Below are positions 18,300 through 41,658 of a stretch of 64,000 nt of DNA, one piece after another. Where the stretch lies: contig NC_068556.1 of the NCBI RefSeq assembly GCF_022201045.2, positions 22,239,501-22,303,500 of the forward strand, in the 5' to 3' direction. Made by a program: the position numbers and the translations under genes. The stretch is from Citrus sinensis. Taxonomy: Eukaryota; Streptophyta; Magnoliopsida; Sapindales; Rutaceae. The notes below the pieces were generated by a model. It was given only the letters and a program-made list of their open reading frames with translations. It searched no databases and was not told the DNA's origin. The first letter of the stretch is position 1; every line of letters starts with the position of its first letter.

Positions 18300-19022
18300 T
18301 TACTCATCAATCAACTTAATCCAATTTTGCTTCTGGCCGTCTTCCATTGTCCACATTTCAAAATAGCCTCCATCATGATTAAGAAGGACACAAAGGACAC
18401 CGCCAAAAGCACCAATATCAAGTTCTTTGCCTATACATTTAGGTGGTAGAAAAGTACGAAACTGCTTATATGTAGTTGCAAACGTAACGGAGGATTGCAT
18501 CAAAGCTGAAAACAAAACAATGCTTTCTAAACAGGCATATTCTATCTTCCAACGGAGAGCTTCATTCACCAAAATCCCTGACTGTGCCTTAGCAAGAGAA
18601 ACAATTTCCCAGGGGAGATTGCCCTTCTTCCAGGATTCTGTTTTCAGTGAAAAGACCACAAATTCCCTTCCTGTCAAGACATGGTGTTTTCCATCATTGT
18701 GGATCCTCAGAATCACATAGTCATCGGTGAATCGATCGTAGTCAAATCCAATTTGATCAGAAATTTGTGAGAGTTAGATACTGATACTTCCTCATATCAT
18801 CTTGTCCACGGATTCCATAACAGGAATCCTATAGCTTGTCGTATAATAGCAATTCATAACAAGCCGTTGCAAGAACCAATTATTTTTGAAACCCTGAGCA
18901 GTTTGTGTGGGAATATCAAGGTTTATTGCTTTGATTTCAGATGCTTCCAAGTCGACAGATTGAATGGTAGACGATGATGAAAATATGAGGGTCTGGTTTT
19001 CACTTATCATATTTGAGTTCAC
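18300..19022 (-). pseudogene. F-box-associated domain relic, F-box missing
   Basis: Two minus-strand stretches, 19022-18792 (ending YYTTSYRIPVMESVDKMI) and 18776-18300, are separated by stops. The second reads QIGFDYDRFTDDYVILRIHN, then FVVFSLKTESWKKGNLPWEI and GAFGGVLCVLLNHDGGYFEM, ending NWIKLIDE. These are typical of the C-terminal F-box-associated (FBA) domain. No F-box is found upstream, so this is a 5'-truncated relic, independent of the tandem F-box copies at 9.4-12.5 kb. An alternative is a short expressed FBA-only protein from 18716. Confidence 0.65.
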
Positions 19023-20239: not shown

Positions 20240-20463
20240 ACTTAGTTAAACTGAGCAAGGCCGTATTGCATTCACCATAAACTCTTCCTCCGTTTCCAAT
20301 AACTCATCTGCCACCACCGAGGCTGCCGCCAGAACCGCCTCCACCACCACCTCCTCTGCCTCCCCCACGGTCTCCAAGAGCCGCCGCTGAAGACAGTACA
20401 GTTATGCTGACGGCGACCAAAACTTTTGACTTTTGAGAGCTTAGGTGCCAAGTGAGGCTTCAT
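20240..20463 (-). pseudogene. Glycine-rich secreted protein, broken copy A
   Basis: It starts MKPHLAPKLSKVK at 20463, like the intact relatives (MTSHLAPKLTKLL). Then the frame shifts: the signal-sequence continuation VLVAVSITVLSSAAALGDRG and the Gly-rich part GGGRGGGGGGSGGSLGGGR lie in the next frame. The cause appears to be a 7-bp tandem duplication (GTCAAAA) near 20427. A stop (TGA) ends the Gly-rich frame, and the hydrophobic tail is barely recognisable (ALLSLTKFVCCPILV). It is the first copy of the minus-strand array that runs to 37 kb. Confidence 0.7.
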
Positions 20464-20702
20464 CTCTTCGACTGCGCATAGAATGAACGAATCGCAAGTC
20501 TTTGAAATGTCAATAAACGCACGCAGAAACTATAACACGTAAGTAGAGGTTTATTAATGGGTCATATATTCATAGAGAGGGAGGAAATGAGGGTCGATGA
20601 TTATTTCTGGACATATAATATAAAACTAAGTGATCACTGATCACTTGAAACAGATTATGTCTTTTTATTTTTTATTATTATTTTTTAAGGATAGGATGTC
20701 GC

Positions 20703-21801
20703 TTTAAATTCAATATAATAAATGTTGGAAAATGATGTTCTCACAAATTTGCGCACAAAGATTTACACAAAACGGTGCGTTTTGTGCAACTTTTCAAATG
20801 CTCTTTGTAACAACGGACACACACGCCAATTCACAATATAATTTTTCCACTCGCGTCTGCCTCCTTTCACTGCAACAAAAACCCAGTAGCTTCGTTCTCC
20901 ACACAACAAGAAGTCTCCTTATTAATATAATATTATATAATAAACCCAACAGAAGTCTCCTTTCTTCCTCCATTTTTCCTCACGAGATAGCTCCGATCTC
21001 TCTCCCTCCGTCCTCCTTTCTTCCTTACGAGACAACCCGGGTCTCTCTCTCTGGCCTCCTTTCTCCCTCACAAGACAGTTCGGATCTCTCTCTCCAGTCT
21101 CCACGCCGCTAATAGTCCCAATTCTAACCTCTCTCGCCGCGCAGCAACCATAAGATCTCTCTCTCACCCGTTTCAATTCATTGTTCTAATTGAAATCTTT
21201 AACTCGTTTAAGACATTGTGCTGAATTACCTATGGATGGTGGTGGTCTTTTGCTTGAGTGTTGTAAATTAGAATCAAATTATGCAAAACCCGATGCCTTT
21301 GGGAATCATGTTTATTTCAACCTTTCATGTTATGATTTGATTGTTTGATGAAATACCTGGAAAATTTAGTTTGTTCTCTCAAATTATTTTACTCTGTTGA
21401 ATAAATTATATTTACCATTATTTGAAAAGAATTTTTAAAAAAATTACAGCCCCTAAACATTGAGCTTATGCTATAATTTATGCGTCTCCCTCATTTATAG
21501 CACATTTTTTTCATCATTTACGCGACAAGGGAGAACGGAGATGAGACTGTTACTGGCGTGGGAATGAGAGAGAAAGATCTGAGCTGTTTGGTGAGGTTTC
21601 GTGAGAAAGAAAGAAGATGGGAGAGAGAGACGCTGAGTTTTGTTCCCCTTATGTGTGTGTGTGTTGTTAAACTGTGCAGTAAAAAGTGGGTTTTATACTT
21701 TGTACAAAACGCACCGTTTTGTGCAAAGTTTTGTACAAAGTGTTGTAAGAATATCGACACCGATAAATGTTTCGTGTATGCATGTAACATTTGAATTTAA
21801 A
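20703..21801. mobile_element. Long inverted-repeat element, non-autonomous DNA transposon candidate
   Basis: The left arm (20703 to about 21150) and right arm (about 21510-21801) are imperfect reverse complements. Outer ends read TTTAAATTCAA and TTGAATTTAAA. Both arms contain ACAAAACGGTGCGTTTTGT, itself nearly palindromic, then a pyrimidine-rich TCTCTC region. The spacer is about 350 bp. Reading each arm outward-in gives related short frames (FTQNGAFC and FAQNGAFC), which confirms the symmetry and shows these frames are not genes. Arms of several hundred bases are typical of non-autonomous Mutator-like or foldback elements. No target-site duplication was found. Confidence 0.65.
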
Positions 21802-21825
21802 ACTAATATAATACGTTGAGCTATC

Positions 21826-22570
21826 AAAGAACAACATCAAAACCTTTAGCTAGCTATACACTTCATTGATAGGATACGTGTCAAGGTTTTAGTTTCTAAA
21901 ACTAAATAATTGTAAGAGTTGTCAACATCAATTCTTTATTTGAGTCAATCAAGTAAATTGGTAAAATTTAATTTTCTTTCGAGCAGAAATTTTATACTAC
22001 ATATATAGAGGATTAATTTACCAGTTGAACAAATAAATGGTGTCATATTTTTGTCCGATCTCTCTTTCTACTTCAGTTATACGATTGCCTAAAAATTAAA
22101 ATTCGGAACAATTTTTGTTTTTATTTTTTGGGCAGGAATTAAAAGAACATTCTCTCTGTAGTTGCCTTTTTTTCTACCATTAAATTGTTGACAACAAATT
22201 CAAAATTCGAGGGACAAAAATGTGCTCACGTCACGTGATCGTAATGGTTGTTCTTAAGCAGTTTGAATCGCGTTATCTCATACCCATATATAGCACTACG
22301 ATGGCTGATCTAGAGCCACCTCCACCATTACCTCTGCCGCCTCATTGTTTTTGATAATAGACTACGTTTATCGTACGAAATATAACATTTAAATTATTAC
22401 AATTTAATCCTTTGAGCTATCGAACAACATTTATTAACATCATAACCTAAACAATAACTTCATTCATATGATACGTGTCAAGGTTTTGATTTCTAAAATG
22501 ATATGGTAGGGATCAGTCAGCATAATTCTCTATGTTCCCATAATTTTTAATTGATTCAATCAAATAAATT
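21826..22570. repeat. Diverged direct repeats, about 150 bp, 590 bp apart
   Basis: Units at about 21826-21975 and 22414-22570 share TTGAGCTATC(A/G)AA, then GATACGTGTCAAGGTTTT followed by (A/G)(T/G)TTTCTAAAA, then AAT(T/C)(A/C)AATCAA(G/A)TAAATT. They look like flanks of an old tandem duplication. Confidence 0.55.
22301..22345 (-). pseudogene. Possible scrap of a glycine-rich copy
   Basis: On the minus strand a short frame reads GGRGNGGGGSRSA. It lies between the two direct repeats at 21826 and 22414, in the same orientation as the array. It is too short to assign firmly. Confidence 0.25.
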
Positions 22571-23790
22571 CAGTCTTTTTTAATATTCTTTAATCAACTC
22601 ATAAAAAATTCTTATCATTTCTTTTTGTGACAAGTGTAAAATTTATGTAAAATACACATTAGAATTTGTTGAGTGATCTTGAAATATTAGGATGAGAATT
22701 TATTTAGAAACCTTAGATTATGAAATATGAGAAGTAGTTTGTGATGGTTCATTCATTTAAAAAAAATGAAAAAAGTGAAAATATTCGAAAACTTTCAAGT
22801 GAGTGGAGTCAGTTCGACAAGAAAAGATTTCTTTGAATACTTTAGTTAGAATTACTAAAGTGACCTTGTCAAAAAAAAATCATATGTTTTCTCAATTAAA
22901 GAAATCATTTAAAAGATTCATATATTTTTTAAGATTAATATTATTTCAAATTATAGCTTAATAACAATCCAAATTCCTCCTGGCTTATGAGACTGGAGTT
23001 TAAACCTTAAATCTCTTATTTTCACTTTAATTTTATTGCTATTAATTAAGTTTGAAGATTTATTATTATTATTATTAAAGGTGATTAGCGACAACTTTAG
23101 GGTAATGTAGTCGTAAGCTCGTTGCCCAATTTGGTAGGGGAGGGTTATAATCAATGAAGTGTAAAACACGCAACGACGTGCTGTTTTAATGTTGTACATA
23201 AGAAAAGCTGGGCGGTTTCAACTAATTTTGAATATATTATCATGCCATTTCTATAAAACCATTCATAACCAGATAGCGTCTTTCATTCTTAGCAAGTATA
23301 CGTATAGCATCTCCAATTCGTCGATTAAAGCAAGTATATGTAAAGCATCTCCAATTCGTCGATTAATCTTATATGTCATGCATTTCTAAATGAAGAGACA
23401 TACACAGAAGAATAAAAATCCAAAAATAAATCGACATCAATTGTGTCTCCTCATATATTGAAGAAGCCAGCTGGATAAGCTGAATTCACATAATTTGTAA
23501 ATCAAACTAACCAGCAACCACATACCAACAAGTTGTAGATGAATTCAAAACATTTCTTGATGTAATTGTTACTTAAAATATATATTACTAAAGTTGATTA
23601 TATATATTCCTCAATAAAGAGTATAAATGAGTATGAAATATAGAACAAAGTTTGATATATAGATCAAGCCTTCAAGGTAAATAACATATTGCAGTTCCTA
23701 TTGAGTATATATTATTGACAAATTGAACGATTGAAAAAATATTCAAGAATACAAAGAATATGGAATACAGAAAAAGAACTCTCAAACAAT
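22571..23790. other. Intergenic spacer inside the glycine-rich array
   Basis: About 1.2 kb of AT-rich DNA without coding signal, apart from the tandem repeat at 23291-23366. Confidence 0.4.
23291..23366. repeat. Two-copy tandem repeat, 38 bp unit
   Basis: Units start at 23291 and 23329. Each reads AGCAAGTATA(C/T)GTA(T/A)AGCAT and then CTCCAATTCGTCGATTAA. Two copies, no spacer. Confidence 0.75.
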
Positions 23791-24198
23791 TTACAAGGCG
23801 CCATGCAGTAAAATAAACGCAACATAAGATAATAAACTTATAGTAGTCAAGCTAAGCTTTGCCATATTGCCTCTACCAACACCAGAGCTTCCTCCTGCGT
23901 TTCCATTTCCGCCACCGCGGGTAACTGTGCCTCCACCAATCGGTATTCTTCCTCCGCCGGCAGGTGTGCCTCCATTGACTGGCCTACCTCCACCTCTGGT
24001 TGGTGTGCCTCCACCAATTGGTCTACTTCCTCCGCCTCCTCCTCCTCGGCTGCCTCCACCGCCGCCACTGCCTCCGCCTCCTCGACCACCTCCGCCACCG
24101 CCACCGCCACCACGTTGAGCAGCAGCTATAGGTGACATGAGGACGATCACTATGAGGAAGACTGCCAAGAACTTAATGAGCTTGTTATTAGGCCTCAT
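23791..24198 (-). CDS. Small secreted glycine-rich protein, copy B
   Basis: 135 residues. Residues 1-27 form a signal sequence (MRPNNKLIKFLAVFLIVIVL, ending IAAAQ). Residues 28 to about 112 are Gly-rich: first pure Gly runs broken by Arg and Ser, then degenerate units with GGGTPTRGGG, GGTPAGGG and PIGGGT. The last 24 residues (MAKLSLTTISLLSYVAFILL and four more) are a hydrophobic tail preceded by small residues (GGSSGVGRGN), which suggests a GPI-anchor signal or a membrane tail. The closest relative is copy C at 25.9 kb, with which it also shares 3' flanking sequence. Glycine-rich proteins of this layout are usually placed in the plant cell wall or at the plasma membrane; no specific role can be named. 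The proline-rich frame on the other strand is its antisense shadow. Confidence 0.75.
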   Translation of the reverse strand: MRPNNKLIKFLAVFLIVIVLMSPIAAAQRGGGGGGGGGRGGGGSGGGGGSRGGGGGGSRPIGGGTPTRGGGRPVNGGTPAGGGRIPIGGGTVTRGGGNGNAGGSSGVGRGNMAKLSLTTISLLSYVAFILLHGAL

Positions 24199-24472
24199 GT
24201 GACGCGTCGTCTTATCAACCGCGACAAAGAAGGTCAGGTATTAGAAATTAATATTGAAAAGCCTTTTTAGTAGCTATAGCTAGATAGCTAGCTTTGAGGG
24301 ATTGAGCAAATTAGTCTGTAATATATCTAGTAAAGGATTATTTACAGAGAAGAAAGAAATTGTCGATAGACTCAAACTTGTGAGAAAAAGGAAAACGTCG
24401 ATAGGCTCAGAAATTGTGTGGATGTAAATCCTTACGATGATGATTGATGAAGAACTTATTTATTGGTTCATG

Positions 24473-24499
24473 TATATATATATATATATATATATATAT
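24473..24499. repeat. (TA)n microsatellite, possibly serving as TATA region of copy B
   Basis: Uninterrupted alternating TA for 27 bases, about 275 bp upstream of the copy B start on the minus strand. It could supply the TATA element. Length variation here is likely between individuals. Confidence 0.6.
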
Positions 24500-25891
24500 G
24501 GGGACTTGTATGAATGGAACATGCGCTTAAATAATTGATCAGGAGACTTGTATTCATCTTGTGGTCAGTCAAACAATGACATGGTAAAGCAATAAGGAAA
24601 ACACTACGAAGTGACCAGAAACAACAGACTACGAAAAGTCAAATACGATAGCCGCACATGCCTATCTCTTAATTGTATTCTGTATGGCCAATCGATTTGA
24701 ATTGAAAGTCTCCAACATTGAATTGATTTGGTTAGTGATATATCCAATGGACCATCCACTGAGTGAACCCAACTTGTTTTCCTTTATCAAGCTGACAAGT
24801 ACAAAGAGTTCGTTTTTTTTTTTTTAAATGAGAATATTGAATGGATGGAAACCAAATCTATCTTCAGTAAAAAACAAAATTACGTGTTGAGTTGTGATTT
24901 ATATTGATTAAGAAAAAATATTTATTTAAGTTTATATGAGGATTATATATCTCTCTATCTAATAAATTAGTCTTTTTAAAATTAGATATTTAAAAATTCA
25001 AGCTTCAGCTCCTAAAAAATGAGTATTATAGTCAAATCTTAGTAGTCAGAATGTAGTGGTAGAACAACTCACTAATTGTGTTAGAGGAAAAAAAAAAAAA
25101 AAACCGAGGTCTGGTAATAGTTTTATTGAGAGATTATTAAATTATGTCCACATTGATTAGTAAAATTGATCTTTTGGTTGGATGCTTATAAATCTTGTAT
25201 CATACCCCTAAAGTTAAAGAATTATGGTCCACTCATAAGTTGGTTCTCTTGATATTTTTAAAGATTTTGTCGTGTATCTATGACTAATATTAGTGCATCA
25301 TTAATATTTTAGTACTCATGTTTTCTTACTTATCAATCACATTTATTAATCATGCATCAATTACGGAAATGAATTTGGCTGAGGAAAAGTTTAGAATGGG
25401 GGGATCCTAGTCGATATTTAATTTCTTATTTCTACTAAAACTAGTAAGAAAAACCAATTTTTAAAGAGAGAGATAGACTGAAATTACACATTTTTCTGTG
25501 ATGCACAATGTCTTGCCTTCTTTGTTATCGTTATTATTTTTCCTCTAAAATTATAATATGATCCGTAAATATTGCTACACCATTTTAATTCCCATTCTTT
25601 AACGGTGGGTATCAATTAACTATTTAGTAGGTAGAATTTTTTGGGTTGAAAAAAGGGCTATGGGATTCGTATCTTTCGTGTTAATTACCAAATCTACAAT
25701 TACTTACTGTTTTAACACCATAATAAAACCACGGACAAAAGGAAATCATATTATAATCAACATTTATCTTCTCTAACTACTTTTCTTATTTTATCTTGCG
25801 CTGTTGCGCATGCTTTTAATATATTATCATAATAATGTGACGAATGTAAAAATTAAATAAAAAGCAAAGTCATAAATGAGCTTCCAAAGAG
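24500..25891. other. Intergenic spacer between glycine-rich copies B and C
   Basis: About 1.4 kb of AT-rich DNA. I see no coding region or clear repeat apart from short poly(A) and poly(T) runs near 24813 and 25088. Confidence 0.4.
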
Positions 25892-26167
25892 TTACATGGC
25901 ATCATGCCGTAAAACAAATGCAACATAAGATGATAAGCATATAATAGTCAAGCTAAACGGAGCCATATTCCCTCTATCTACACCGGAGCTTCCTCCGGTT
26001 CCGCGATTTGTTGTGCCTCCACCTCGGCCGCCTCCACCTCTTCCACCGCCACCACCACCACCACCACCACCACCACCACCACGTTGAGCAGAAGCAACAG
26101 ATGACGTAAGAACAATCACAATTATGATGAACACCGGCAAGAACTTCATGAGCTTATGAGGCCCCAT
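25892..26167 (-). CDS. Small secreted glycine-rich protein, copy C
   Basis: 91 residues if started at the ATG at 26167 (MGPHKLMKFLPVFIIIVIVL), which lines up with copy B; an upstream in-frame ATG at 26197 would add ten residues before the signal sequence. The signal sequence ends VASAQR. A run of 13 glycines follows, encoded largely by a (CCA)n microsatellite on the plus strand, then RGGGGRGGGTTNRGTGG. The tail MAPFSLTIICLSSYVAFVLR matches copy B. A TATA box at 26340-26347 supports expression. Gly-run length is probably polymorphic through slippage. It is the most recent duplicate pair with copy B. Confidence 0.75.
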   Translation of the reverse strand: MGPHKLMKFLPVFIIIVIVLTSSVASAQRGGGGGGGGGGGGGRGGGGRGGGTTNRGTGGSSGVDRGNMAPFSLTIICLSSYVAFVLRHDAM

Positions 26168-26339
26168 GTACATCAACTGCATGCCAAACGAAACCAAGTC
26201 ACAGAAGTGTCTTAAATCAGTATCTCGCAGAAATGGAAAGAAAAGAAAGCTTACAGATTTTCAGCTGCAGTGAGAACCCTTTATTTGAGCTAGCTTTTGA
26301 AGAATAAATAGCAAATGTTTACAAGAGGTAGAGGGTTGT

Positions 26340-26347
26340 TATTTATA
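26340..26347 (-). promoter_or_regulatory. TATA box of glycine-rich copy C
   Basis: Minus strand TATAAATA, about 175 bp upstream of the ATG at 26167, inside a CTCTATAAATAACAAC context. Confidence 0.5.
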
Positions 26348-26863
26348 GAGAGGAAAGAAAAGATGGAGAGTCATATAACTTGAACATACAAATTCCTGTA
26401 ATGAGAGAAAGACCTAAATAAAATTGCATAAAAAATATATTGTCAACGTTGTTTTTTTAATTTATTTCATATTAATTTAATGCTAGACTGAATTGCTTGG
26501 GAGATTGAAACACGCGCTTAAACACTTTGAGGAGAAGATTTATATATCCAATGGTCAAAGAATTAAATGACACAGAAATTTAATTAGAAAGGAAAAGACT
26601 GCGAAATTAATGTCAAAATCTATTGTTGTTACAAATTGGTACTTACATATTACATATGTGTTAGATAATGACATACAGAGAAATAAACAAAGGACCAGAA
26701 AACAAGTGTTGAACTTCGTTAATCTATGTCTTTCTCATCGCAAATTAGACATAAAATTAAAACTAGGGAATGAAAATGAAACAAACTCTTTTATTTAATC
26801 AGTTAACGGCATCCAGTCCAGCAAATAATAAAAAAAACAAAAAAACTAGATATTAAAGAACTT

Positions 26864-27133
26864 TCAAATGTTCATGCATGCATAATGTTCCATGGCATAG
26901 TGTAAAACCAACGCAGCGTAAAAAAGGAAACTTGTTATTGAACTAAGCAGTGGCCTTGCGGAAGTAGATGAATGATTCTTGGCATGACCGCCGCAGCGGC
27001 GGCTTCCACCAAGTCTACCGCTATCATCACCTTTGGCGGCTACTAATGAGGACGACAATGATATGATTATCAGGACAGTAATTGATACCACCACCAAGAA
27101 TTTTGTGAGCTTTGCTGCTAAGGATGACTTCAT
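26864..27133 (-). CDS. Small secreted protein of the glycine-rich array, copy D
   Basis: 89 residues from the ATG at 27133 (MKSSLAAKLTKFLVVVSITV); an upstream ATG at 27142 adds only MGK. The signal sequence ends SLVAAKG. The centre is short and nearly depleted of glycine runs (GDDSGRLGGSRRCGGHAKNH), then SSTSARPLLSSITSFLFYAA and a tail ending VLHYAMEHYACMNI. The ends are as in copies G, H and I, so this belongs to the second subfamily, in which the Gly core is reduced. A TATA element lies at 27189-27196. It is intact, but the short core makes structural-wall function less likely than in copy B. Confidence 0.7.
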   Translation of the reverse strand: MKSSLAAKLTKFLVVVSITVLIIISLSSSLVAAKGDDSGRLGGSRRCGGHAKNHSSTSARPLLSSITSFLFYAALVLHYAMEHYACMNI

Positions 27134-27188
27134 TTTGCCCAATCCAATTAGGAGAATTTCTTATGAGAATTGCAGAAGAACATCGATC

Positions 27189-27196
27189 TTTTTATA
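27189..27196 (-). promoter_or_regulatory. TATA box of glycine-rich copy D
   Basis: Minus strand TATAAAAA, 56 bp upstream of the ATG at 27133. A related element (TTTTATAATTG on the plus strand) precedes the broken copy F at about 27874. Confidence 0.45.
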
Positions 27197-27306
27197 GTTG
27201 CTTCGTATCTTTCGGAGTTAATTCTCGAATCTAAAGCGTGATCATTGCTTTAATATATACAATACTTTCAACCGCAATGGGTAGTCACATTATCGTTACA
27301 TCTGAA

Positions 27307-27558
27307 TCACTTACAATGGAGTAAAACTAATGCAGCATGTGTAATCCAGCAAAGCGATAGCTTAGAAGCAGCAGTTGATGTATGGTTATGGTTCCTGCTT
27401 GTGCCACCTCTACTCTGTCCACCAGCTCTGCGTCCTCGGCAACCGCCATGTCCTCCGCCTTTGGCAGCCACTAAGGATGAGAATATGCGGACAATAAGCG
27501 AGAGGACAACCGGCAATTTCCTGACCTTCGGTAACAAGAAATAAGAAGGAGACCTCAT
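27307..27558 (-). CDS. Small secreted glycine-rich protein, copy E
   Basis: 83 residues from the ATG at 27558 (MRSPSYFLLPKVRKLPVVLS); an alternative start at 27570 adds MKRS. The signal sequence ends SSLVAAKGGG. The core is GGHGGCRGRRAGGQSRGG plus a His/Asn/Thr stretch (SRNHNHTSTAASK). The hydrophobic tail reads LSLCWITHAALVLLHCK. The N-terminal spacing differs slightly from copies H and I. Only 170 bp separates it from copy D, so the two are tightly tandem. Confidence 0.65.
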   Translation of the reverse strand: MRSPSYFLLPKVRKLPVVLSLIVRIFSSLVAAKGGGHGGCRGRRAGGQSRGGTSRNHNHTSTAASKLSLCWITHAALVLLHCK

Positions 27559-27747
27559 TGATCGTTTCAACTCAAATTATAAAGAAACCAAAATCACTCG
27601 CTAATAAATTAAAGGAAACAAAAAAAGAAGACCTTGGAATTTAATCAACAAATCGAACAAGCTAGCATTGCAACCTGTTGAAAATAGAGGCACTGACGAA
27701 GAAGCTCTCGCAAGGGACTGTAAGCAAATTTTCCGAAATTACATGGT

Positions 27748-27823
27748 TCGTGATAATCACAGGACAACAATTGATAGCACTACCAACAATATTGCGAGAG
27801 ATGGTGCTAAGTGAGGACCTCAT
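27748..27823 (-). pseudogene. Glycine-rich array, N-terminal relic (copy F)
   Basis: From the ATG at 27823 the sequence is similar to the signal-sequence part of copies D and I (TTGTTGGTAGTGCTATCAAT, then TGTTGTCCTG), but frameshifted, and no Gly-rich core or tail follows. Upstream leader and TATA-like sequence also resemble copy D. Confidence 0.55.
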
Positions 27824-28283
27824 TTCTTTTCCAATTGCGCATGTAATTTCTTATAAGAAGGCATAAGAACATCTTTTATAATTGCTTGGTATCTTTCATG
27901 TTAATTTCCAATTTTTATGATCTTTACTACATAATATTAAAATCATATAAAAAATAATCATAAAATGATGCGCGTAAAACAACAATATTTTATAATTAAC
28001 AAACCTTCTTCTACAAAATGTGAATTCGTTTGATTTTGTTTGCATCTAATTAATTATAATAATAAATTAGGCCACTCTGAAGCTACCACCTTCATTACAA
28101 ATATGAAATATCTGATAATATAATTTCAATCACACTGGAGAATTATAACAAATCACCAAATACGTACTCCCTAACCACATCATCGTTACAAAATCCTTTT
28201 GGTTGATAATATCCAGTCCAACAATAACAAGAATACTAGAAACAAAACAAAACAAAAATTATAGAAAAGAAATTTCAAATCTT

Positions 28284-28542
28284 CTACATGGCATAATGGA
28301 GTATTACTAATGCTGCTTTCAAAAACAAAGTTGTTAACCAATTAAGCGATAGCCCAGAAAGGAGCAGATGAATGGTTATTGCCATGAATACCGCGGCCAC
28401 CGCCACTGTTACTGCGTCCACTGCCTTCACCACCATGTCCCCACCGCTGCCGTGTCCACCACCTGTGGCAGTCACTAAGGATGAGAGGAGGAGATGACAA
28501 CTAGCAATTTTGTGAGCTATTCGGTGACAAGTGAGACCTCAT
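28284..28542 (-). pseudogene. Glycine-rich secreted protein, broken copy G
   Basis: It starts MRSHLSPNSSQNC and stops. Compared with intact copies (CCAAAGCTCACAAAATTG) it reads CCGAATAGCTCACAAAATTG, a 2-bp insertion that shifts the frame. The Gly-rich part (GGEGSGRSNSGGGRGIHGNN) and the tail are in separate frames. The tail (LKAALVILHYAM) is readable in the frame ending at 28284. Domain order is intact, so the loss of coding capacity looks fairly recent. Confidence 0.65.
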
Positions 28543-28864
28543 CTTTATTATCAACTCAAATAAACTAAAAGGTCAATTAATATCACACGCGAATAATGGA
28601 AATGGAAACAAACAAACCAGGAGGGTTTTAACAGTAATACCCAGAATAATGTGACTCTGTCATGAGAGAATTAATTGTTTTTCCTTTGTGAAGGAGGAAA
28701 TGTTAGTTTCTCTTGAGTATTAGGGCAGGATAGATGGATATAGTGCATGGTATGGATGTTATTTAGTTACTTTATATATTTGTTTATTCCATAAATTATT
28801 CATAAGAAACTCTTGTACTAAGAATAATTTATGTTTATAGCAATTACATGATTTAGGACATTAT

Positions 28865-29495
28865 GTGCGGGCTAAGGAAAATCAAGGTGTTAATGATTCT
28901 TTGTTAGTTACGGCAGCCAAAATGAAAGAAGTATGGATTCATCGGTCGCCTCCTGTATGGCCTTGGTGTAAACTCAATTCGGATAGCTCTTGCAAAAGGT
29001 CTGGCTTTTCAAGTGCTGGAGGTATCATTCGGGATTATAACGGCAAGTGGATTCGGGGATTTGGGTTAAATATTGGTTTGATTGTTGCTCGATTACGATT
29101 GCTGAGTTTTGGGGTCTTTATCAAAGTTTGCTGATTGTTGGGGAGATTAGAATTCGGTGGATATTGTTGGAAGTGGATAGTTTATGTGTAACTCAATTAG
29201 TTGCTAGCTCTTCTATTCCCACTAATGGCTGTTCTCAGCTTGTCCAATCTATTCAGGACCTTTGAAACCAGAGTGGTATGTGGAAATTAAGCATATTTAT
29301 CGTCGAACGAATTTTGTTGTTGATGCTCTTGCTAATTATGCACACTTTCTGCCTTTGAGTTTTCATATTTTTAGTTCTCTTCTATCTTCTATTAATCACA
29401 TTTTTCTCCATGATAGGTATGAGTTCACCTATTCCCAGTTTATTTTATCTTAACTCCCTTTAAGGAGTTCCCATTTCTAAAAAAAAAAAAAACCT
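28865..29495 (+). mobile_element. LINE 3' fragment with degraded RNase H domain
   Basis: The frame 28865-29060 contains WCKLNSDSSCKRSGFSSAGG and IIRDYNGKWIRGFGLNIG, typical of the RNase H (RVT_3) domain at the C-terminus of plant L1-type LINE ORF2. The domain continues after a frameshift (AEFWGLYQSLLI, then ILLEVDSLCVTQL) and again after a second shift (IKHIYRRTNFVVDALANYA). It ends in a short 3' UTR and a poly(A) run at about 29480-29492. It is 5'-truncated, as usual for LINE insertions. It sits between copies G and H of the glycine-rich array. Confidence 0.75.
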
Positions 29496-29904
29496 TAATA
29501 ATAAGTATTAATTACATGTTTAAATTTATCTTATTTAAAGAATATTTTTCAATGATATGTTACATGACATGTCATTAAGGCTTCATTAATTTATTGATAA
29601 TGTTATGAATTATCTCATTAATGATGAAATAAAAAGTAAACTATTATTAAATACATTGCGATTGTTATTTGGTAAGATGTCATTCAAAGATCCAAACCTT
29701 GTTCCCAACCTATGGCATACCCTAAATTACAGGCTCATTTTATAACTAGAAGTCGAACACTTACATTTTAAAGTTTAATTCCTTAAAATCTTCGAATTAA
29801 TGTATGCGACATGCCATTTCATTAATGTCATCTTCCTTTTTTTTTTCTTTTTTCCTTCATATGCTATTCTTTTTCCCATTGATGAGTTCAGTTTTGATAA
29901 TGGT

Positions 29905-30480
29905 TTTTTTTTTTTTTTGGAAATAAGCTAACATTTCGTTCACCATAAGTGAAAAATTGAAAATCAGTACACCATCACATCTAATACACACAAAATATTA
30001 TACAAATGATCTCAATAGATATCTATTACAAATACACAATTGGTTGAATCAATACATTTCCACACTGAAGAATAAGAGCAAAAACCAGTGTATTAAAGTT
30101 ATTCGAGTGAAGTAAATCTTCCAACAAAGAAGAGCACCCAACAAAGAGTCATTCACTAGATGAAGCTCTATTATATAATACTCTCCATCTTTAAATTTGA
30201 TTTTTCCAATTTGTACAGGAGCATATTTTCTGTCTTCACCCATTTGTTATAGCATGAAATCCTCTAACTTTTTCAAGATGTGAATCTGCAAAACTAGAAA
30301 ACAAACATACCATAACATATAAAAACAGTAGAAAACTGCAAAAAAAAAAAAAAAAAAAAAAAAACAGTAGATAAAGCCATACGCACACCGGATCAAAATA
30401 TGGGTACGAAGTATATACCCACTCCAAATCAGAATCTGGGCCTGAGCGGATCAAGATCAAGATCTGGGACCGTACACATA
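29905..30480 (-). other. Possible retroelement-derived sequence with poly(T) start
   Basis: A run of T at 29905-29919, followed by sequence with a retro-insertion look (minus-strand 3' end), and a run of about 25 A at 30340-30364. No recognisable reverse transcriptase or RNase H motif is present. The assignment rests only on the homopolymers. Confidence 0.25.
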
Positions 30481-30505
30481 GTGAGGGGACAAAAAGAAAA
30501 GAGTT

Positions 30506-31160
30506 GAACTATTGGCACCCCTTCATTCATCTTATAAAATCCCTGTGATATTATAATTACATTAAAGGATAAATATAAATAAAATTTTAATCTTATTTAT
30601 ATTTTCTTTCTCTCTTCAATTTCATTTTGCTTGCACAATATAAATTTTTTTTAATCATTAGAATAATCTGAATTTAAGAAGCGATCTATAAAAAAAAATT
30701 TAATCATTAAATTAATCTAAATTTAAGAAGCAAATTTTTAAGCCAAAATAATGCTCTTGTAATATATGTAGCAACAAAATTAGGATACAACATTGAGAGA
30801 AAATATATTAAATAAAATTTTATCTCACTACATATAATTTTTTAAGGATTCTCAAACTAATTATTGCACCCAAAGTTTATATGTACGATGAAATTGTATT
30901 GGACCCATAAAATATTCAATATTTTATAAGATTTTTCTTACTTTTTCCTTTAGATTTTTTTTAAAAAAATTAAATGATAAAGAAAGTTTGAAGAGAGGAA
31001 TATAATTATTAAGACTAAAAGAGTGAGAAAGTTATTAGAAAATTGTAAGATTTATAAATAAAAATAGTGTTTATTTAGAAAAAGGGTATTTTTGGTATTA
31101 AATAAAATATAATTGAAAAAAAAAGGTTTAAAAAATATTTTGAAGGGGTGCTAATAGTCC
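30506..31160. mobile_element. Inverted-repeat transposon, non-autonomous
   Basis: The left end reads GAACTATTGGCACCCCTT and the right end, reverse-complemented, GGACTATTAGCACCCCTT. Length 655 bp, AT-rich, no coding content. It contains an internal repeat of about 65-70 bp period (TTTAATCATTA(G/A)A(A/T)TAATCT near 30650 and 30700). It ends 28 bp before the target site of the next element. Confidence 0.55.
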
Positions 31161-31198
31161 TACTCAAAAGAAAAATAAAATTACATCATCCAAAATTT

Positions 31199-32397
31199 GG
31201 GTAAGTTTTAAAAACTACCCCTGAGGTTTTCCTTTACTACACCTAGAGAGAATATATATATATATTGACAACATCCCCCCTGACTGTGTATAAGAGTTAG
31301 GCATCCGTTAGGCAGTTGAGGGAATGTTCAAAAATGCCCTTCACAACACATTTCAAGGAATGACAAGATAATTTGATACTGTATATGATTTTTACATTTG
31401 GAGCCAAATGGTTTAGAGTAGTGGAAAGACTATTATACCCTTATGAATTTATTTTTTGACAATACACAATCATATATAAAACAAAATTGAATTGAGTGTT
31501 AAAAAGACTGAAATGCCCTTTAAACTAAGTATTTTAACAGTGACAATTAGGTAATAACATCACTTGAACCTTGATCCCATTCGCATCCCTAATAGAGTGA
31601 CCCCAGCAAACATCCCTAATATCAGTCCACATCTTGTGCAAACTATACTGCTCTGAAATAGCTAAACCAACTACAAATACTTCATCATCAATTACTGCCT
31701 CAATGTCAAAGTACACTAAGCTGCATACATTAACATAAATATTTAGCTTAACAAGTTCAATAAATGCCATCTTTTATACGAACAATCTTAGATGTAGCAA
31801 TACAAAATTAGATAAGCAATGGCACGAGCTCTAACATTGCAGATTATACATGAAGAAAGATTATCACTAAACCTGGAAATATATATTTTGGCTGTAAAAT
31901 TTCAGTAAACATTCACAGATCATGGTCCAAAATCATCAAGAATTAATCTGTTTTCATAGTTTACATAATATATCCAATTATTATCAACTTAAAAATCAGT
32001 TCATTTTCGGTCATTGCTTCAATTTGTAAAAATTTTAATTAACTATATAAAAAAGTCAAGTATATAACTAGCAACAATTCAACAAAATCCAAGAATATAA
32101 TATAACCCAACTTTAGTTTTAATCTTTCACATAAATACACACCTGCTACGCTCTTCAATCACTGACTGTTCAGATGCCGGTCGTCGCCGGAATTCAGATA
32201 GAAACGTAGTTGATCTCATAGACTTGTTATTTTTCTAAGATTTAAAAATAAAAAAATAGACCATTTACGTTATTGCCCTCAACTACCTAACGGATGACTA
32301 ACTCTTATACACGGCCAGGGAGATGTTGTCAATATATGCATATATTCTCTCTAGGCGTAGGAAAGGCAAACCTCAGGGTGGTTTTTAAAACTTACCC
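31199..32397. mobile_element. Mutator-like element with terminal inverted repeats and 10-bp target duplication
   Basis: The left end is GGGTAAGTTTTAAAAACTAC and the right end, reverse-complemented, GGGTAAGTTTTAAAAACCAC. Similarity extends over more than 100 bp (CTGAGGTTT, CTAGAGAGAATATAT, CTCTTATACAC and so on). TCCAAAATTT flanks both sides exactly (31189-31198 and 32398-32407). A 9-11 bp duplication with long terminal repeats is typical of the Mutator superfamily. Inside, a minus-strand frame 31770-31534 (78 residues, with FDIEAVIDDEVFVVGLAISE) has no family I recognise. The element is 1199 bp and too short to carry a full transposase. Confidence 0.8.
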
Positions 32398-32730
32398 TCC
32401 AAAATTTCCACCGGATGAAGAGCCAACTATGGCGAAACTGAGGAGCGGTTGAAGATGGAGCAAACAGAAGGCTGGAGAAGAGGAGAGAGAAAGGGATGGG
32501 TTTGAGAGAAAACAAGTGGCTCTCTTTGATAATGGCTAGTTATTTCTCTAAATCAATTGTAAGTGAGCATATATTAATATCTTAGAAAAAAAATTCAGAC
32601 TTGTATTCTCAAAATAAAATTGAGAAAACAAGATTGAAATATATAAGGATAAAATTCAGAGACATAAAATTAAAAAAAAAAAAAAGATTTGCAAGGTAAA
32701 ATTTCAAATCTTAGTAGTTGATGGTATGAA

Positions 32731-33042
32731 TTAGAAATTAAGAACACATAAAACCAATGCAGCGTAAGAAAATAAACTTGTAATCCAACTGAGCGATAGC
32801 CTTGAGGATGCAGATGAATGACTCCCGCCATGAGTCCCATGACTGCCGCCAACTGCACCAGCTCCTCGCGCGCCGCCATAACCGTGTCCGCCTATGCTGT
32901 GCATCCCTCCACCGCTTCTGGGTCCGCGGCCGCCTCCACCGCGTCCGCCGCCGCCTCCACCACCTTTGGCAGCCTCTGTTGATGAGACGAGGACAATAAT
33001 TGAGATGACAACTAACAATTTTGTGAGCTTCGGCGACCTCAT
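32731..33042 (-). CDS. Small secreted glycine-rich protein, copy H
   Basis: 103 residues from the ATG at 33042 (MRSPKLTKLLVVISIIVLVS), chosen because it matches the paralogues; the open frame extends upstream to 33156 but adds a non-signal leader. The signal sequence ends STEAAKG. The core has GGGGGGGRGGGGRGPRSGGG, then a Gly/His/Ser part (HSIGGHGYGGARGAGAVGG, SHGTHGGSHSSASS). The tail LSLSWITSLFSYAALVL is the consensus of the second subfamily. It lies 330 bp from the right end of the Mutator-like element. Confidence 0.75.
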   Translation of the reverse strand: MRSPKLTKLLVVISIIVLVSSTEAAKGGGGGGGRGGGGRGPRSGGGMHSIGGHGYGGARGAGAVGGSHGTHGGSHSSASSRLSLSWITSLFSYAALVLCVLNF

Positions 33043-33924
33043 GATTTTTATCTTTTTTTTTTTTCCACTCAAATTAGAGAAACCGATAACACGTAAGTGT
33101 AAATAAGTAACCAGTGGGACCATTTGGCACCTCCCTAAAACAAAGTGTGAATTCAATTTATATTTCTAATTGAAATATTAATATATTATGAATCAATTTA
33201 TGGTAAGGATTTGTTTGTTTGTTTGGTGGGGTTTCCTCTTTGGTCAATTAAGTTGTTGCAACTAGCTTTAGCTATTCTTGGCTAATAAAGCTTCTGAATA
33301 GAACGTGGAGTCTTTAATTAATTGATAACGATGTGTCGTATCCACCCGTCGCAGCTAACATGGCAGAGGCTTTCTGTTCTATTCAGTTTAATTAAATGAA
33401 AAAAAAAAAAAAGAATTAAGTAAAATTCTTGAAAAAAAAAATCATTCAGTCAAAATGCAAACATAGAAATCCCTAGTGCAACTAATTTCGATAATTTTTC
33501 TGTTCTATTCAGTTTTAGATTAGGTTTTCTGTTCTAGTTGGGGCAAATTTGTTCAATAAATCATATAAAATTACTAAAGTTTCTTATCTTGGTTTTGTTA
33601 AATAGTACATGACTTTATATTTCTATTTGAAAATCTTCAAGCAACAGCTATATGCAGCTGATTTCTTTTTCTTTTTCTTCTTTTTGGAACTTACAGGTTT
33701 TTTTTTTTAATTTCTCTAAAACAAAATAATGATACTTATTTTTCCTACATAAACAAAAACTATTTTTCAATTTCTGTAGTCGGCAACTTATTGGATATTT
33801 ATTAACCTTTAGTATTTTCTTTTACAAATAACAAATTATGTTTGATATTGAAGAAAGTTATAGGATTATATAATAGCATTAATGAAGTGAGTGCACATTA
33901 AATGGTGCCAAGGTTCAAGAGTAC
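33043..33924. other. Intergenic spacer upstream of copy H
   Basis: About 880 bp of AT-rich DNA. TTTTCTGTTCTATTCAGTTT-like stretches occur near 33370 and 33497. No coding region seen; the copy H promoter should lie near 33050-33250. Confidence 0.35.
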
Positions 33925-34299
33925 GAGCATCTCTAAAATTTTTTATAAATTTTACTTTTTAAATATCTATTTGTTTACTTATGTGGTAAATAAAAAGGTG
34001 AAAAAATATGATATTTTTAAAAAAAACTCTTTAAATAGAAATAAGTTAATATTATTTTAATCAAATAATTATTTTTGAAAGGAAAAGTTAATAGCAATTA
34101 AAGTACTTTTTTCTCTTTCTCCAATAAAAAGTAATAAAATATAAATTGAAGAGAGAGAAAGCAACTCTCCAAATTTAAAGAAAGAGAATAATTTCTTATT
34201 TGAAGATTTTTATTTGAGTGTCTTTTGGAGCCTTAAATATCGATGTGGTTTATCAAATAAGTAATAAAATCTTATTTAAAGAGATTTTTGGTGATGCTC
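33925..34299. mobile_element. MITE with GAGCATC ends
   Basis: The left end GAGCATCTCTAAAATTTTTT and the right end GATTTTTGGTGATGCTC are inverted repeats. Similarity continues inward (TTACTTAT(G/T)TG(G/A), (A/T)AATATC(T/G)AT). Length is about 375 bp with no coding content. The GAGCATC start is common in plant miniature elements. Confidence 0.5.
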
Positions 34300-34503
34300 T
34301 AATAATACTCTATTAAATTGTCCTTGTTAATAAGTTAATTATATTAAGAATATTTTTATTATAAATTAAAATATTTAAAATAAAATTTAGAGTACAAATA
34401 GTCTCATATGCCATATACCGATTAAATGAGCATAAATTTAAAATGAATATAATTTTAAGCCCTTGGATTGAATAATAGTGAAAAGATCGAAGTTTTGATG
34501 GCA

Positions 34504-36145
34504 GGGTAATTTTTAAAAACCACTCCTGAGGTTTGCCTTTACTACACCTAGATAGAATGTATGCATATATTGACAATATCCCCCCTGGCTATGTATAAGA
34601 GTTAGGCACCCGTTAGATAGTTGAGGGCAACAACGTAAATGCCCCATTTTTTAATTTTTAAATCTTACAAAAGCTGATATACGGTAAATGATTAGACAAG
34701 AGCAACTAGAGAATGCACATGATGCTTTTGAAGCTAGTGAAACCCGAGGGGGGTAGTAACCCATTTTCAAACCCACGGACAATGCTTAGCTTCATTTCTT
34801 CTTGTTTTTTCTGAACATAACTTAATACCCTCTGAATTTAGCAATAGCTGAGGCACTATGTGATACACTAAACTAACAAATCTATGAGATCAACTATATT
34901 TTGAACTGAATTTTAATGATGACCGACATCTGAACAGCCACTGATTGAAGAGCGTGGAAGATGTGTATTTATGTGGAAGTTTAAAATTGAAGTTGGGTTT
35001 TATTATTTTCTTGGATTTTGTTTTAAGATTTTGACAAATTGAAGCAGTGACCGAAAATGAATTGATTTTTAAGTTGATAACCATTGGATATGTTATGTAA
35101 ACTATGAAAATTGATTAATTCTTGATGATTTTGGACCGTGATCTGGAATGTTTACTGAAATTTGCTTGATCTATTTTTCAAATTGCTTTTTATGAGAATG
35201 CATGGTTTTTGTCGAGAAAAATGCTTATGTTTGGTTTTCTTAATTATTATTTGACAAATGTGTAGCCTATGTAAAATTCAACCGCTTGCTAGTTGTTTTT
35301 TTTTTTTTAATGTTTTATATAGAGTGATTCCAACAACTAAATTTTGTTGGTAAATTGATGCATTATTTGATTATACAAGTGTAAATATTTGCACTTCATG
35401 GTAAAACTAAGATGCTTGGCAGTTGGTTTTTGAGGTTGTCATTAAGATATAAGAGAAAATTGGTTACACAAAGCTTGTAGGCAGTGAGTTAAGAGTTAGT
35501 AACAGTTAGTATTAACAATGAATTTTATTAAGTTGAGAATTTAGGGAAATCAAAACTTACCCTATCCATACAACACTCCTGATTCCTAGCATACATTAAC
35601 ATTACAGCCAAAATATATATTTCCAGATTTAGTGTTATCTTTCATCATGCATAATCTGCAATGTAAGAGCTCATACCATTACTTATCTAATTTTGCATTG
35701 CTACATTTAAGATTGTTGGTATAAAAGATGGCATTTATTGGCCTGGTTAGGCTAATTATTTATATTAATGTTTATGCAGCTTAGTTTGATATTGAGGCAG
35801 TAATTGATGGTGAAGTGTTTGTGGTTGGTTTGCCTCATTTTGGTCTTTTTAACACTGAATTCAGTTTTGTTTAATTATATGATTGTGTAATGTCAAAAAA
35901 AATTCATAAAAGTATAATAGTCTTTTCACTACGCTAACCCATTTGGCGCCAAATGTAAAGATCATCTACAATACTAAATAATCTTGTCATTCCTTGAAAT
36001 GTGTGGGGAAGGTCATTTTTGAACATTCCCTCAACTATCTAACGGGTGTCTAACTCTTATACATGACCAAGGGGGATATTGTCAATATATACATATATTC
36101 CCTCTAGGTGTAGCAAAGGTAAACCTCTCTAGATGGTATTAATTA
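34504..36145. mobile_element. Second Mutator-like element, same family, inverted interior
   Basis: The left terminal repeat (GGGTAATTTTTAAAAACCAC, TCCTGAGGTTTGCC) matches the element at 31199. The right terminal repeat (36025-36145) is recognisable but degraded at its outer end. The interior is the reverse complement of the first element's interior: 34925-34970 matches 32135-32180, and 35640-35830 matches 31680-31870. It has an extra block of about 440 bp (35163-35603) absent from the other copy. The shared frame (starting MAFIGLVRL) is stopped after 18 codons here. Target duplication could not be defined. Confidence 0.65.
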
Positions 36146-36693
36146 ATAATAAAATTATTTCTCTGCCCTAGTTAATGCTTATTTTTCTCTTTCCCTTCTC
36201 CAATTTTTTTTTCTTCTTTCTACTGTTTTCTCTTCTTCCCCATCCCTTCTTAAACAACATAAAGGTTCCTTTTCAGCTTTCCACCATCAATAAGAATGGA
36301 AATTTGAAACATGACAAAATTTCCTGCATTAGACCCCAACATTAAAATGGAAATAAAAACCGCGATTAAATTTCATCATGATCTATACATTCAATTGATT
36401 TTTCCTCTCTTTCAAAAATCATTAATGGAAAAACAACAATCAAATCGAATCGCATCCAAAATAATGAAACAAGAATGGAAATTTGGATCTTAATTAATGA
36501 TGGGATCCCGAACAGTACTGTTCTTCAAGAAATATATATATGAAAATCAAATACTTTTTCGGAAAATATGAAAAGGCATAAATTAGATTAAAAACTAGAA
36601 AAATGAAAATAAAAATGGTAAAATGTGATGCAATCCAGTCCAACAATAACAGCAAAATTATTAAGGAACAAAAAAAAATGAAAACTTTCAAAT
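36146..36693. other. Spacer downstream of copy I
   Basis: AT-rich, with a pyrimidine-rich stretch near 36180-36245. No coding region supported. Confidence 0.35.
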
Positions 36694-36960
36694 CTACTGC
36701 ATGGCATAGTGCAGTAAAAGTAATGCAGCGTGGGAAAATAAACTTGTTATGGAACTAAGCAATGGGAATGGCCTTGTAGAAGTAGATGAATGATACATGA
36801 TGACGCCGGCACCAGCGCCCCCACCTCGCACGCCGCCACGTGCACCTCCGCCACCTTTGGCAGCCACTGAGTCTAAGGATGACTGTGACATGATCATCAG
36901 GACAATAATTGATAGCACCACCAACAATTTTGTGAGCTTTGGTGCCAAGTGAGATGTCAT
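36694..36960 (-). CDS. Small secreted glycine-rich protein, copy I
   Basis: 88 residues from the ATG at 36960 (MTSHLAPKLTKLLVVLSIIV). The signal sequence ends SLDSVAAKGG. The core is short (GGGGARGGVRGGGAGAGV), then IMYHSSTSTRPFPLLSSITS and a hydrophobic tail ending LLLLHYAMQ. It is close to copy D in length and in both ends, and is the outermost recognised member of the array. The second Mutator-like element lies between it and copy H. Confidence 0.75.
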   Translation of the reverse strand: MTSHLAPKLTKLLVVLSIIVLMIMSQSSLDSVAAKGGGGARGGVRGGGAGAGVIMYHSSTSTRPFPLLSSITSLFSHAALLLLHYAMQ

Positions 36961-37352
36961 TTCTTTTTCAATCGCGTGGGAGAATTTCGAACTTGTAATT
37001 TCTTAAGAAGACAAGGCAGAAGAAACCTGTTATATCGCTTCGTATCTTTCATGTTAATGAGCCAAATCTGAAATTATTTATGCCAGTTTAATACACACAC
37101 ACACACACGAAAAACCTTACAATAACGTTATAATTAACAAATCTTTTCTCTTTAAAACTTCTTTTGATTTTGTTTTGCAATAATTTTCTTTCTTTTTAAT
37201 CGTGGGTTGTGGAGATATTGACGTAATTTTGCGAGAGCAACTTGTTACGAGATAAGTATTGTGTGCAGTAAATCCGTGCACCATTTAGATAATTTCTAGC
37301 ACAAAAGTTGTTAAATAAGCTTGGTGGCCTTTTCAAACTAGTAAGTAAGGAT
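36961..37352. other. Spacer upstream of copy I
   Basis: Contains a short (CA)n run at 37093-37108. No coding region. It presumably includes the copy I promoter. Confidence 0.35.
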
Positions 37353-39390: not shown

Positions 39391-41658
39391 TTATCTTTGC
39401 CAACAAAGTTTGTTCCCACCTTCTCTCATAATCTCATAGGCAAGTTTGTGTTTTTCTAAAGATCCTGTTCCAGACTCAACGTATTTACTGGCTGTTTCTC
39501 TTAAACTCCAAACCATCAAGGCCTTAAGTTCCTGAGCACTAAAGCCCGATTCTGTATCACGTAAAACACCATACTCAGCATTCCTTGTCCACCGATGCAA
39601 GATGTATTGAGATGGAATTTCCTTTACGTTCATTAGGTTGAACACTTTTAAGATATGCCCGCAAAGCATGCCTTCAAATTCAAACATCTGACAGCTGCAG
39701 CTCACATTTAGGGCACTGAAGGTTACCACATGCTTCTCATCCTCATTTCCGCACTTCCGCACTAAGTATCTGACAATAGTTGCTTCCTCATTAGTTTTTG
39801 TCACAAGATAATCAAAGGATTGCAGAAGTTCGTTCTGAAATATTTTGAACATATTACGTGTATAAAGCCTTCTACATTGTTCTTCTATTGGTTCTTTGGT
39901 TTGTAGAAAAGCCTGCAAGTTCCATGTGTTGAAATCTTCTTTCTTTTCCTCCTCACGACGACGCTCAAGACCTTGAGTGTATCTTGAAATAAACTCTCTT
40001 AGTGGTGTCTGGGCAGTTAAGGTCGCGCCAAAGAATGATTCAATGCTTTTACCTATTGGGATGCCAGCGAAAAAGCTTCTACGCAAGTACAATGGAACCC
40101 AACTTTCTCGCTTCTCATACATTTCTTTAAGCCAAATATTGTCCCTCTGGCCATATTTCTCGATAAGGGCAGTCCACATGGTACTAAATTGGGCAATGGA
40201 TTGACTCTGGTAAATGCATTTGTTGTATTCAAATACGAATTGATTAGACATAGACCTCAAATTCTCTCTTTCCTTGGCCCTAATCTGCCACATTGAAAAC
40301 CGATGGTGAGTCCTTGGAAAGATTCGGGCAATCGCCTGCTGGATAGCCTTGTCTTGATCAGCAATAATTGTTTTTGGATGACACCCAAACATTGCCCTTA
40401 TCCATGTATTAAACAACCAAGTAAAAGACTCCTTCGATTCATTAGCTACTAAAGCACAACCCAAAAGCACCGGATGCCTGTGGTGGTTGATTCCAACAAA
40501 TGTTGCAAATGGTATCAGATAATTAGTTTTCCTATATGAAGTATCAAAAATAATAGCATCTCCAAATTGACTGCATGAAAATCTAGACCTGCCATCTGCC
40601 CAGAAAACACTCATGCATCTACCATTATCAACTTCTACAGAGTGAAAGAATCCAGTGTCTTCTGATTGTCTGGTTTGAAAATACTCGAAAAGCACCCTGT
40701 ACCAAGCACTTCCAATGTTGTTCTCCTGGCTTATCTTGATAATGCTGCCATTATTTATTTCAGCGAGATCGACAGAATCCAGTCCACCACTCACATCCTC
40801 TATGAATTTCTTCGAAGTAGCAAAAGTTTTCTTATTGGCCCCCATTTGACTCTCCAGATCATGATTATGATCTTTCTGGAGACGATCCACTATCCAGCTT
40901 CCAAATTCTTTTCTCTTTATCCTCATAAATGCTCCACAACCTACTCTTGAAGGGTGTTGAAATCCTTCCTTTGAGCAAACAAACCGCCGAGAAGTAACTG
41001 ACCCATCATTTTTCGAGCGGAACAGCTGACCAATTCGTACTCGAAATCCTGTTTTTTCGGCATATGCTTGATAAAATTGGTAAGCTTCATTAGCTGAATT
41101 GAACTCTAGACCTGCATAAGGTTCAGGAATGCATTCTCCTTCACCTGCACTGCTTCTAAGCCGTTTGAAATTAATGACACCAGATGGGCATGACCCTCCA
41201 TCAGCAAATGATTTGATTTTGGGCCTGTGGGACACATTAACTGATGATTTTTTAGCTGAATGATTTCTCTGCTTCGCAGTAGGCAAACTGTTTTCACCAG
41301 CAGAGTCAAACTCGTGATTGTGATCCTTCTTCATTTGGTCAAGTACCCACTTCCCAGAATCACGTTTTTGCACTCTAATATAAGCCGAACAACCTGTCCT
41401 TGAATTGAGCTGAAATCCCTCCTTTGAACACACAAACCTTCTTGATGAAACTGAACCATCAGTTCGAGAACGATACAACTGACCGATACGGATTTTGAAT
41501 CCCACACGCTCTGCATATTGACTATAAAACTCGCGTGCATCATCTGCGGTATCAAATTCTAACCCAACAGATGGTTCCATTCTAGACCATCCTTCATCCG
41601 CTCCATTGACATTATCAATCACTGACAGCACACCTATCGGGTATGCATTTAGAACCAT
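39391..41658 (-). CDS. FRS7: FAR1-related sequence protein, FRS7/FRS12-like
   Basis: 755 residues in one coding exon. FRS proteins are nuclear transcription factors domesticated from Mutator-like transposases; Arabidopsis FRS7 and FRS12 act in light, clock and flowering control. Two FAR1 DNA-binding domains lie in tandem at about residues 43-117 (RRFVCSKEGFQLNSRTGC, DHNHEF) and 193-268 (RRFVCSKEGFQHPSRVGC, DHNHDL). A MULE-transposase-like core follows at about 345-450 (FGDAIIFDTSYRKTNY, IIADQDKAIQQAI), then a SWIM zinc finger (CSCQMFEFEGMLCGH). The end EIMREGGNKLCWQR is as in the family. Two FAR1 domains and this C-terminus point to FRS7/FRS12 rather than FAR1/FHY3. A 5' UTR intron (about 41698-42084) is likely. 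No lesions are seen. Confidence 0.93.
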   Translation of the reverse strand: MVLNAYPIGVLSVIDNVNGADEGWSRMEPSVGLEFDTADDAREFYSQYAERVGFKIRIGQLYRSRTDGSVSSRRFVCSKEGFQLNSRTGCSAYIRVQKRDSGKWVLDQMKKDHNHEFDSAGENSLPTAKQRNHSAKKSSVNVSHRPKIKSFADGGSCPSGVINFKRLRSSAGEGECIPEPYAGLEFNSANEAYQFYQAYAEKTGFRVRIGQLFRSKNDGSVTSRRFVCSKEGFQHPSRVGCGAFMRIKRKEFGSWIVDRLQKDHNHDLESQMGANKKTFATSKKFIEDVSGGLDSVDLAEINNGSIIKISQENNIGSAWYRVLFEYFQTRQSEDTGFFHSVEVDNGRCMSVFWADGRSRFSCSQFGDAIIFDTSYRKTNYLIPFATFVGINHHRHPVLLGCALVANESKESFTWLFNTWIRAMFGCHPKTIIADQDKAIQQAIARIFPRTHHRFSMWQIRAKERENLRSMSNQFVFEYNKCIYQSQSIAQFSTMWTALIEKYGQRDNIWLKEMYEKRESWVPLYLRRSFFAGIPIGKSIESFFGATLTAQTPLREFISRYTQGLERRREEEKKEDFNTWNLQAFLQTKEPIEEQCRRLYTRNMFKIFQNELLQSFDYLVTKTNEEATIVRYLVRKCGNEDEKHVVTFSALNVSCSCQMFEFEGMLCGHILKVFNLMNVKEIPSQYILHRWTRNAEYGVLRDTESGFSAQELKALMVWSLRETASKYVESGTGSLEKHKLAYEIMREGGNKLCWQR

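Follow-up and report, generated by a model that had tools for sequence, protein, structure and literature searches.

The window analysed here is a stretch of 64,000 nucleotides from Citrus sinensis (G000:C1:22239501-22303500; 299.7 Mb genome). Between its positions 20240 and 36960, the minus strand carries a small gene in six open copies (83 to 135 aa) and in three that are clearly broken, together with one relic resembling a promoter. This confirms the array of six intact and at least three broken copies that a first-pass annotation had proposed. The array is bordered on one side by a frame at 18300-18773, which has no Pfam match, and on the other by a FAR1-domain gene (39391-41703). Its parts, in window coordinates, are as follows.

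36983-37058, minus strand: stretch upstream of copy A; TATAA-like, resembling that of b2 and partly that of D
36694-36960, minus strand: copy A, 88 aa; clean signal, uncharged tail, omega-like triplets SST/STS
32731-33042, minus strand: copy B, 103 aa; clean layout
28286-28542, minus strand: broken copy b1; tail still recognisable, reading frame disrupted in both signal and core
27760-27823 (about), minus strand: broken copy b2; N-terminal end only, shifted, with an upstream element common to A and D
27307-27558, minus strand: copy E, 83 aa; open, but the hydrophobic signal contains an Arg, the tail is shortened and the last residue is Lys
27155-27263, minus strand: stretch upstream of copy D; contains TATAAAAA, shared with b2
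26864-27133, minus strand: copy D, 89 aa; Gly-poor core, additional residues beyond the tail
25892-26167, minus strand: copy F, 91 aa (96 aa from an earlier ATG); charged residues after the tail
25666-25706, minus strand: promoter-like relic; no recognisable gene, resembles 37039-37080 upstream of A
23791-24198, minus strand: copy G, 135 aa; longest core (73 aa), clean layout
20240-20463, minus strand: broken copy b3; frameshift and stop inside the core

Both ends are common to the copies and carry constraint at the codon level, and chance or artefact was ruled out on these grounds as the source of the array. Alignment separates two groups: in A, B, D and E the signal is of the KLTKLLVV type, with changes in E, and ends in AAKG, and F and G have AQRGGG in common together with a different tail. 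The end consensus quoted earlier for the whole array holds for the first group but not for the second, which has other ends. The three broken copies and the relic show that copies have been lost. Copy E may be decaying as well, its open frame notwithstanding, given the Arg in its signal, its shortened tail and its terminal Lys.

Two related repeated elements in opposite orientation (31199-32398 and 34503-36127) flank copy B; pieces of them are 81-92% complementary, and the first has terminal inverted repeats of about 120 bp. A pair of stretches of about 120 bp (21782-21901 and 22380-22498) is 77% identical and is adjoined by a short Gly-coding remnant (22306-22341), possibly another relic. At 51951-57598 there is a LINE-type element with reverse transcriptase, zf-RVT and RNase H-like (RVT_3) domains in a single 1168-aa frame, and adjoining minus-strand frames resemble, by appearance, its upstream part. 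The region 59535-62990, in which a frame (60732-62078) matches Transposase_21 (tnp2) and DUF4218, is probably a CACTA-type transposon.

Terminal signals and the glycine-rich core

The ends were assessed with a crude, home-made rule (a signal-like N-terminus plus an uncharged tail with an omega-like site). By this rule the N-terminus is signal-like in five of the six copies, E failing, and an uncharged hydrophobic tail preceded by an omega-like small-residue site is clean in A, B and G. The tail contains, or is followed by, Glu in D, Lys in E and Arg and Asp in F, and charges at this place are not usual in a GPI signal. Overall, three of six copies (A, B, G) show the layout cleanly, D and F show it with flaws, and in E it is poor; tail hydrophobicity is only moderate in A and D. 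When applied to the 48 ORFs of 70-200 aa in the window, the rule passed two, copies A and G, copy B being absent presumably because its ORF starts at an earlier ATG. A looser form of the rule was passed by 2 to 76 of 2000 shuffled copies, and both peaks of a hydropathy test appeared in 0 to 2 of 2000 shuffles. A Pfam search gave no family at the cut-off and two unrelated families far below it (E 0.069 and 0.082); no RRM, cold-shock or CCHC domain, as in plant GRP class IV, was matched in Pfam at E up to 1.

Between these ends lie cores of 18-73 residues, with a glycine content of 50-76% in A, B, F and G (highest in F), 38% in E and 28% in D. The 211 core residues include 115 Gly, 24 Arg and 37 that are Pro, Ala, Ser or Thr. 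Summed over the six cores, 25 Lys and Arg face 2 Asp and Glu, both in D (two-sided binomial 5.6e-6 against equal chance), a value that is indicative only, as it counts residues of related copies as independent and its null is a reading of one-step changes from Gly codons. Runs of identical codons do not exceed three in any copy except F, where ten GGT in a row (26051-26080) suggest slippage.

Selection, conservation and age

Selection and identity were computed on the six open copies. From three independent pairs (A-D, F-G, B-E), with a bootstrap that resamples codons only, we obtained a pooled dN/dS of 0.34 (0.22-0.51) for both ends, 0.40 (0.22-0.67) for the N end and 0.29 (0.16-0.54) for the C end; the measure covers the ends only, as the cores do not align. 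The six pairs that can be formed among A, B, D and E share history; together they gave 0.30 (0.23-0.39). Single pairs reach 0.81 (E-G, N end), and the N end of D-G is saturated. Judged by these codon counts, purifying selection acts on both ends of the copies.

These values bear on two other readings of the array. The first takes the cluster to be dying, with most or all copies pseudogenes and the signal of selection historical, in keeping with the three broken copies, the relic promoter and the visible damage to E. We consider this quite improbable, as A, B, D, F and G are still open at 88 to 135 aa and dN/dS at the N and C ends is 0.19 and 0.24 for A-B and 0.24 and 0.42 for F-G. According to the second, the copies encode glycine-rich wall proteins of class I/V that are secreted, and their hydrophobic C-terminus, instead of being a GPI signal, spans the membrane or serves self-association. 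A signal followed by Gly repeats is what defines class I (PMC5852109), and the charges in or behind the tails of D, E and F agree with this reading; A, B and G, however, have uncharged tails preceded by small-residue sites, and dN/dS is as low in the tail as in the signal, which leaves it unlikely.

Identity was calculated as matches over the longer length for all 15 pairs, including flanks of 90 bp on each side, and was counted as above control when it exceeded the mean of 30 shuffles by more than 0.03. This applied to the signal in 15 of 15 pairs, the tail in 8, the core in 2 (A-D, E-F), the upstream 90 bp in 3 (A-D, A-E, B-E) and the downstream 90 bp in 1 (A-D). The pair F-G shows 0.80 in the signal and 0.81 in the tail, with 0.60 upstream (shuffled 0.58), 0.66 downstream (0.63) and 0.37 in the core (0.34); the corresponding values for A-D are 0.81 and 0.72, with 0.69 upstream (0.59), 0.67 downstream (0.62) and 0.62 in the core (0.55). 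The ends are therefore better conserved than the flanking DNA; for the signal this is clear, for the tail less complete. In 7 of 15 pairs (A-G, B-F, B-G, D-E, D-F, E-F, E-G), among them D-E despite its common group, tail DNA was not more than 0.03 above the shuffled level, so that this comparison is informative among closer pairs only.

The proposal that the ends are selected while the core diversifies stands for the ends, on both dN/dS and identity relative to the flanks, and for core drift, but the core is not wholly free, since it remains basic. The same comparison speaks to the idea that the copies are precursors of short secreted signalling peptides, with the active part in or beside the core. 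Their small size, tandem arrangement and conserved pre-region would suit such precursors; yet no core motif conserved across the six copies is visible in the alignment, core identity lies within 0.03 of the shuffled level in 13 of 15 pairs, and it is the two hydrophobic ends that are conserved instead. We regard this idea as highly improbable.

Because DNA identity among the copies is 66-86% over aligned pieces, with the top values only in pieces of about 40 bp, we judge the duplications to be old. Synonymous distances, hand-worked from substitution counts, are about 0.39 (A-D) and about 0.50 (F-G) for the closest pairs. With such distances, no near-identical copies and three broken ones, the earlier description of the family as locally amplifying finds no support. 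Copies A, D and b2 have in common an upstream stretch that ends about 20 bp before the ATG and contains TATAACAG in A, TATAAAAG in b2 and the element listed above in D. The 40-bp piece at 25666-25706 resembles the upstream DNA of A at a place where no gene is recognisable. For F-G, B-b1 and A-b3, no long shared upstream stretch was found, with alignment scores, taken without a shuffled control, of 21-34 versus 71-73 for A-b2 and D-b2.

Relatives elsewhere in the genome

An initial pattern search for dispersed relatives found nothing. Searches of the genome were then made with the copies as queries, scoring being limited to the best candidates. Among these, at E up to 1, copy F matched 22 places, of which 5 belong to the array and 17 lie outside it, and copy B matched 6, of which 4 belong to the array. 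At E up to 10, copy D had 4 array members among its 5 matches, and the 6 matches of copy A were 5 array members and the C9 locus. Copy G, at E up to 0.1, had 3 array members among its 5 matches. Fifteen of the 17 outside matches of F were examined, and a tail was present only at C9:33326833 (L020). The others were rejected as relatives, being Gly or other repeats or unrelated frames; one (L011) lies near the start of a long frame.

The ORF at C9:33326818-33327096 (93 aa) has a signal, an RGG-rich basic core and a hydrophobic tail reaching the C-terminus, that is, the same three-part layout as the array copies, in a single gene. Used as a query at E up to 1, it recovered itself, A and F only among the best candidates. 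Its match with copy A is reciprocal and weak (E 0.006 each way) and partly driven by composition. About 7.5 kb from it, an ORF of about 140 aa (L047, about 7708-8130; G000:C9 about 33334608) has a signal-like start, a basic RG-containing middle and a hydrophobic tail to the C-terminus. With the same layout at the C9 loci, the layout is not peculiar to this cluster. On C8, a further frame (L044, 1438-1809; G000:C8 about 24591415, match C8:24591478) has a Gly/His-rich core and a hydrophobic C-terminal tail; a signal peptide was not found in the frame read, and an upstream exon is possible.

Proposed function and comparison with known plant proteins

The array is probably best explained as an old set of tandem genes that encode small, glycine-rich proteins of GPI-anchored type, which would be held at the plasma membrane and face the wall. 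In favour of this explanation we counted the selected ends, the clean signal and uncharged tail of A, B and G, the core that stays basic and glycine-containing, the upstream stretch common to A, D and b2, the C9 ORF of the same layout, the Arabidopsis proteins described below, and the rarity of long codon runs, the GGT run of F being the one exception. Counted against it were the charges that D, E and F carry in or beyond the tail, the damaged signal of E, the moderate tail hydrophobicity of A and D, the near-shuffled tail DNA in 7 of 15 pairs, the want of a long upstream stretch shared by F and G, and the Pfam search without a match at the cut-off.

The open frames, the purifying selection on both ends, the hydrophobic ends and the basic glycine-containing cores are direct observations; secretion, anchoring, disorder, wall contact and a role in stress are what we infer. 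On the GPI-type explanation, the N-terminal signal would bring the peptide into the secretory pathway, and the hydrophobic tail would be cut and replaced by a GPI anchor at the preceding Ser/Gly/Asn-rich site. The mature peptide, with its Gly-rich, basic and presumably disordered core, would then sit on the outer face of the plasma membrane, where the core could touch pectin and other acidic polymers of the wall; the peptide would probably serve as a linker tuned to stress or growth. If such a core needs to keep its composition only, slippage and point change would be free to alter its length and order. We put forward more tentatively that the cluster is lineage-restricted, and that selection holds the two delivery ends and a bulk property of the core (basic, Gly-rich, disordered) while the length and order of the surface peptide are free to change, the expandable Gly-codon run of F being one route. 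With cores from 18 to 73 residues between related ends, the array is a small natural set of short predicted surface peptides, from which one could learn what requirements, other than charge and glycine content, a glycine-rich segment facing the wall has; in all other respects the gene family is small and unremarkable.

A literature search by titles and abstract openings found no description of this cluster. Its layout, which the first-pass annotation could not name, can be named: a review whose list of predicted GPI-anchored Arabidopsis proteins includes three glycine-rich ones, At1g07135, At3g04640 and At4g15460, supplies the match (PMC6726743). Their listing implies the same three-part layout, a likeness by layout alone, and, unlike for the array copies, makes no mention of a tandem cluster (PMC6726743). 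An insertion line of At1g07135 is described in one report as more resistant to Sclerotinia after one, Mediterranean-like, acclimation regime (PMC13103438). Tables of expression name the gene as well: it is raised in an ABR17 transgenic, rises about twofold with zeatin (PMC2559843) and is lowered after the IDL7 peptide (PMC5853212); under arsenate, At1g07135 and At3g04640 are both given as down (PMC2547109). At3g04640 is labelled elsewhere as an 'RNA-binding glycine-rich protein', in conflict with the GPI listing (PMC3645707).

Plant GRP class I is defined as a signal peptide followed by a high-Gly region with (GGX)n repeats (PMC5852109), and classes I and V, with a signal before GGX or mixed Gly repeats, may be similar to the array copies in this order. 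The class I/V definitions, as worded there (PMC5852109), include no conserved C-terminal hydrophobic tail, whereas the array copies have one. Copies D and E also differ from these classes in being Gly-poor. The Cys-rich C-terminal domain of class II is absent, the aligned C-terminal ends having at most two Cys each. AG peptides have a very short core between signal and tail, and this core is rich in Pro, Ala, Ser and Thr. Twelve genes for these small GPI-anchored polypeptides are included in the Arabidopsis list (PMC6726743). The array cores, in contrast, are Gly/Arg-rich and fall outside the AG-peptide type. Set beside these systems, the array is a real, old and partly decaying tandem family, of a predicted GPI-anchored glycine-rich kind already known in plants.
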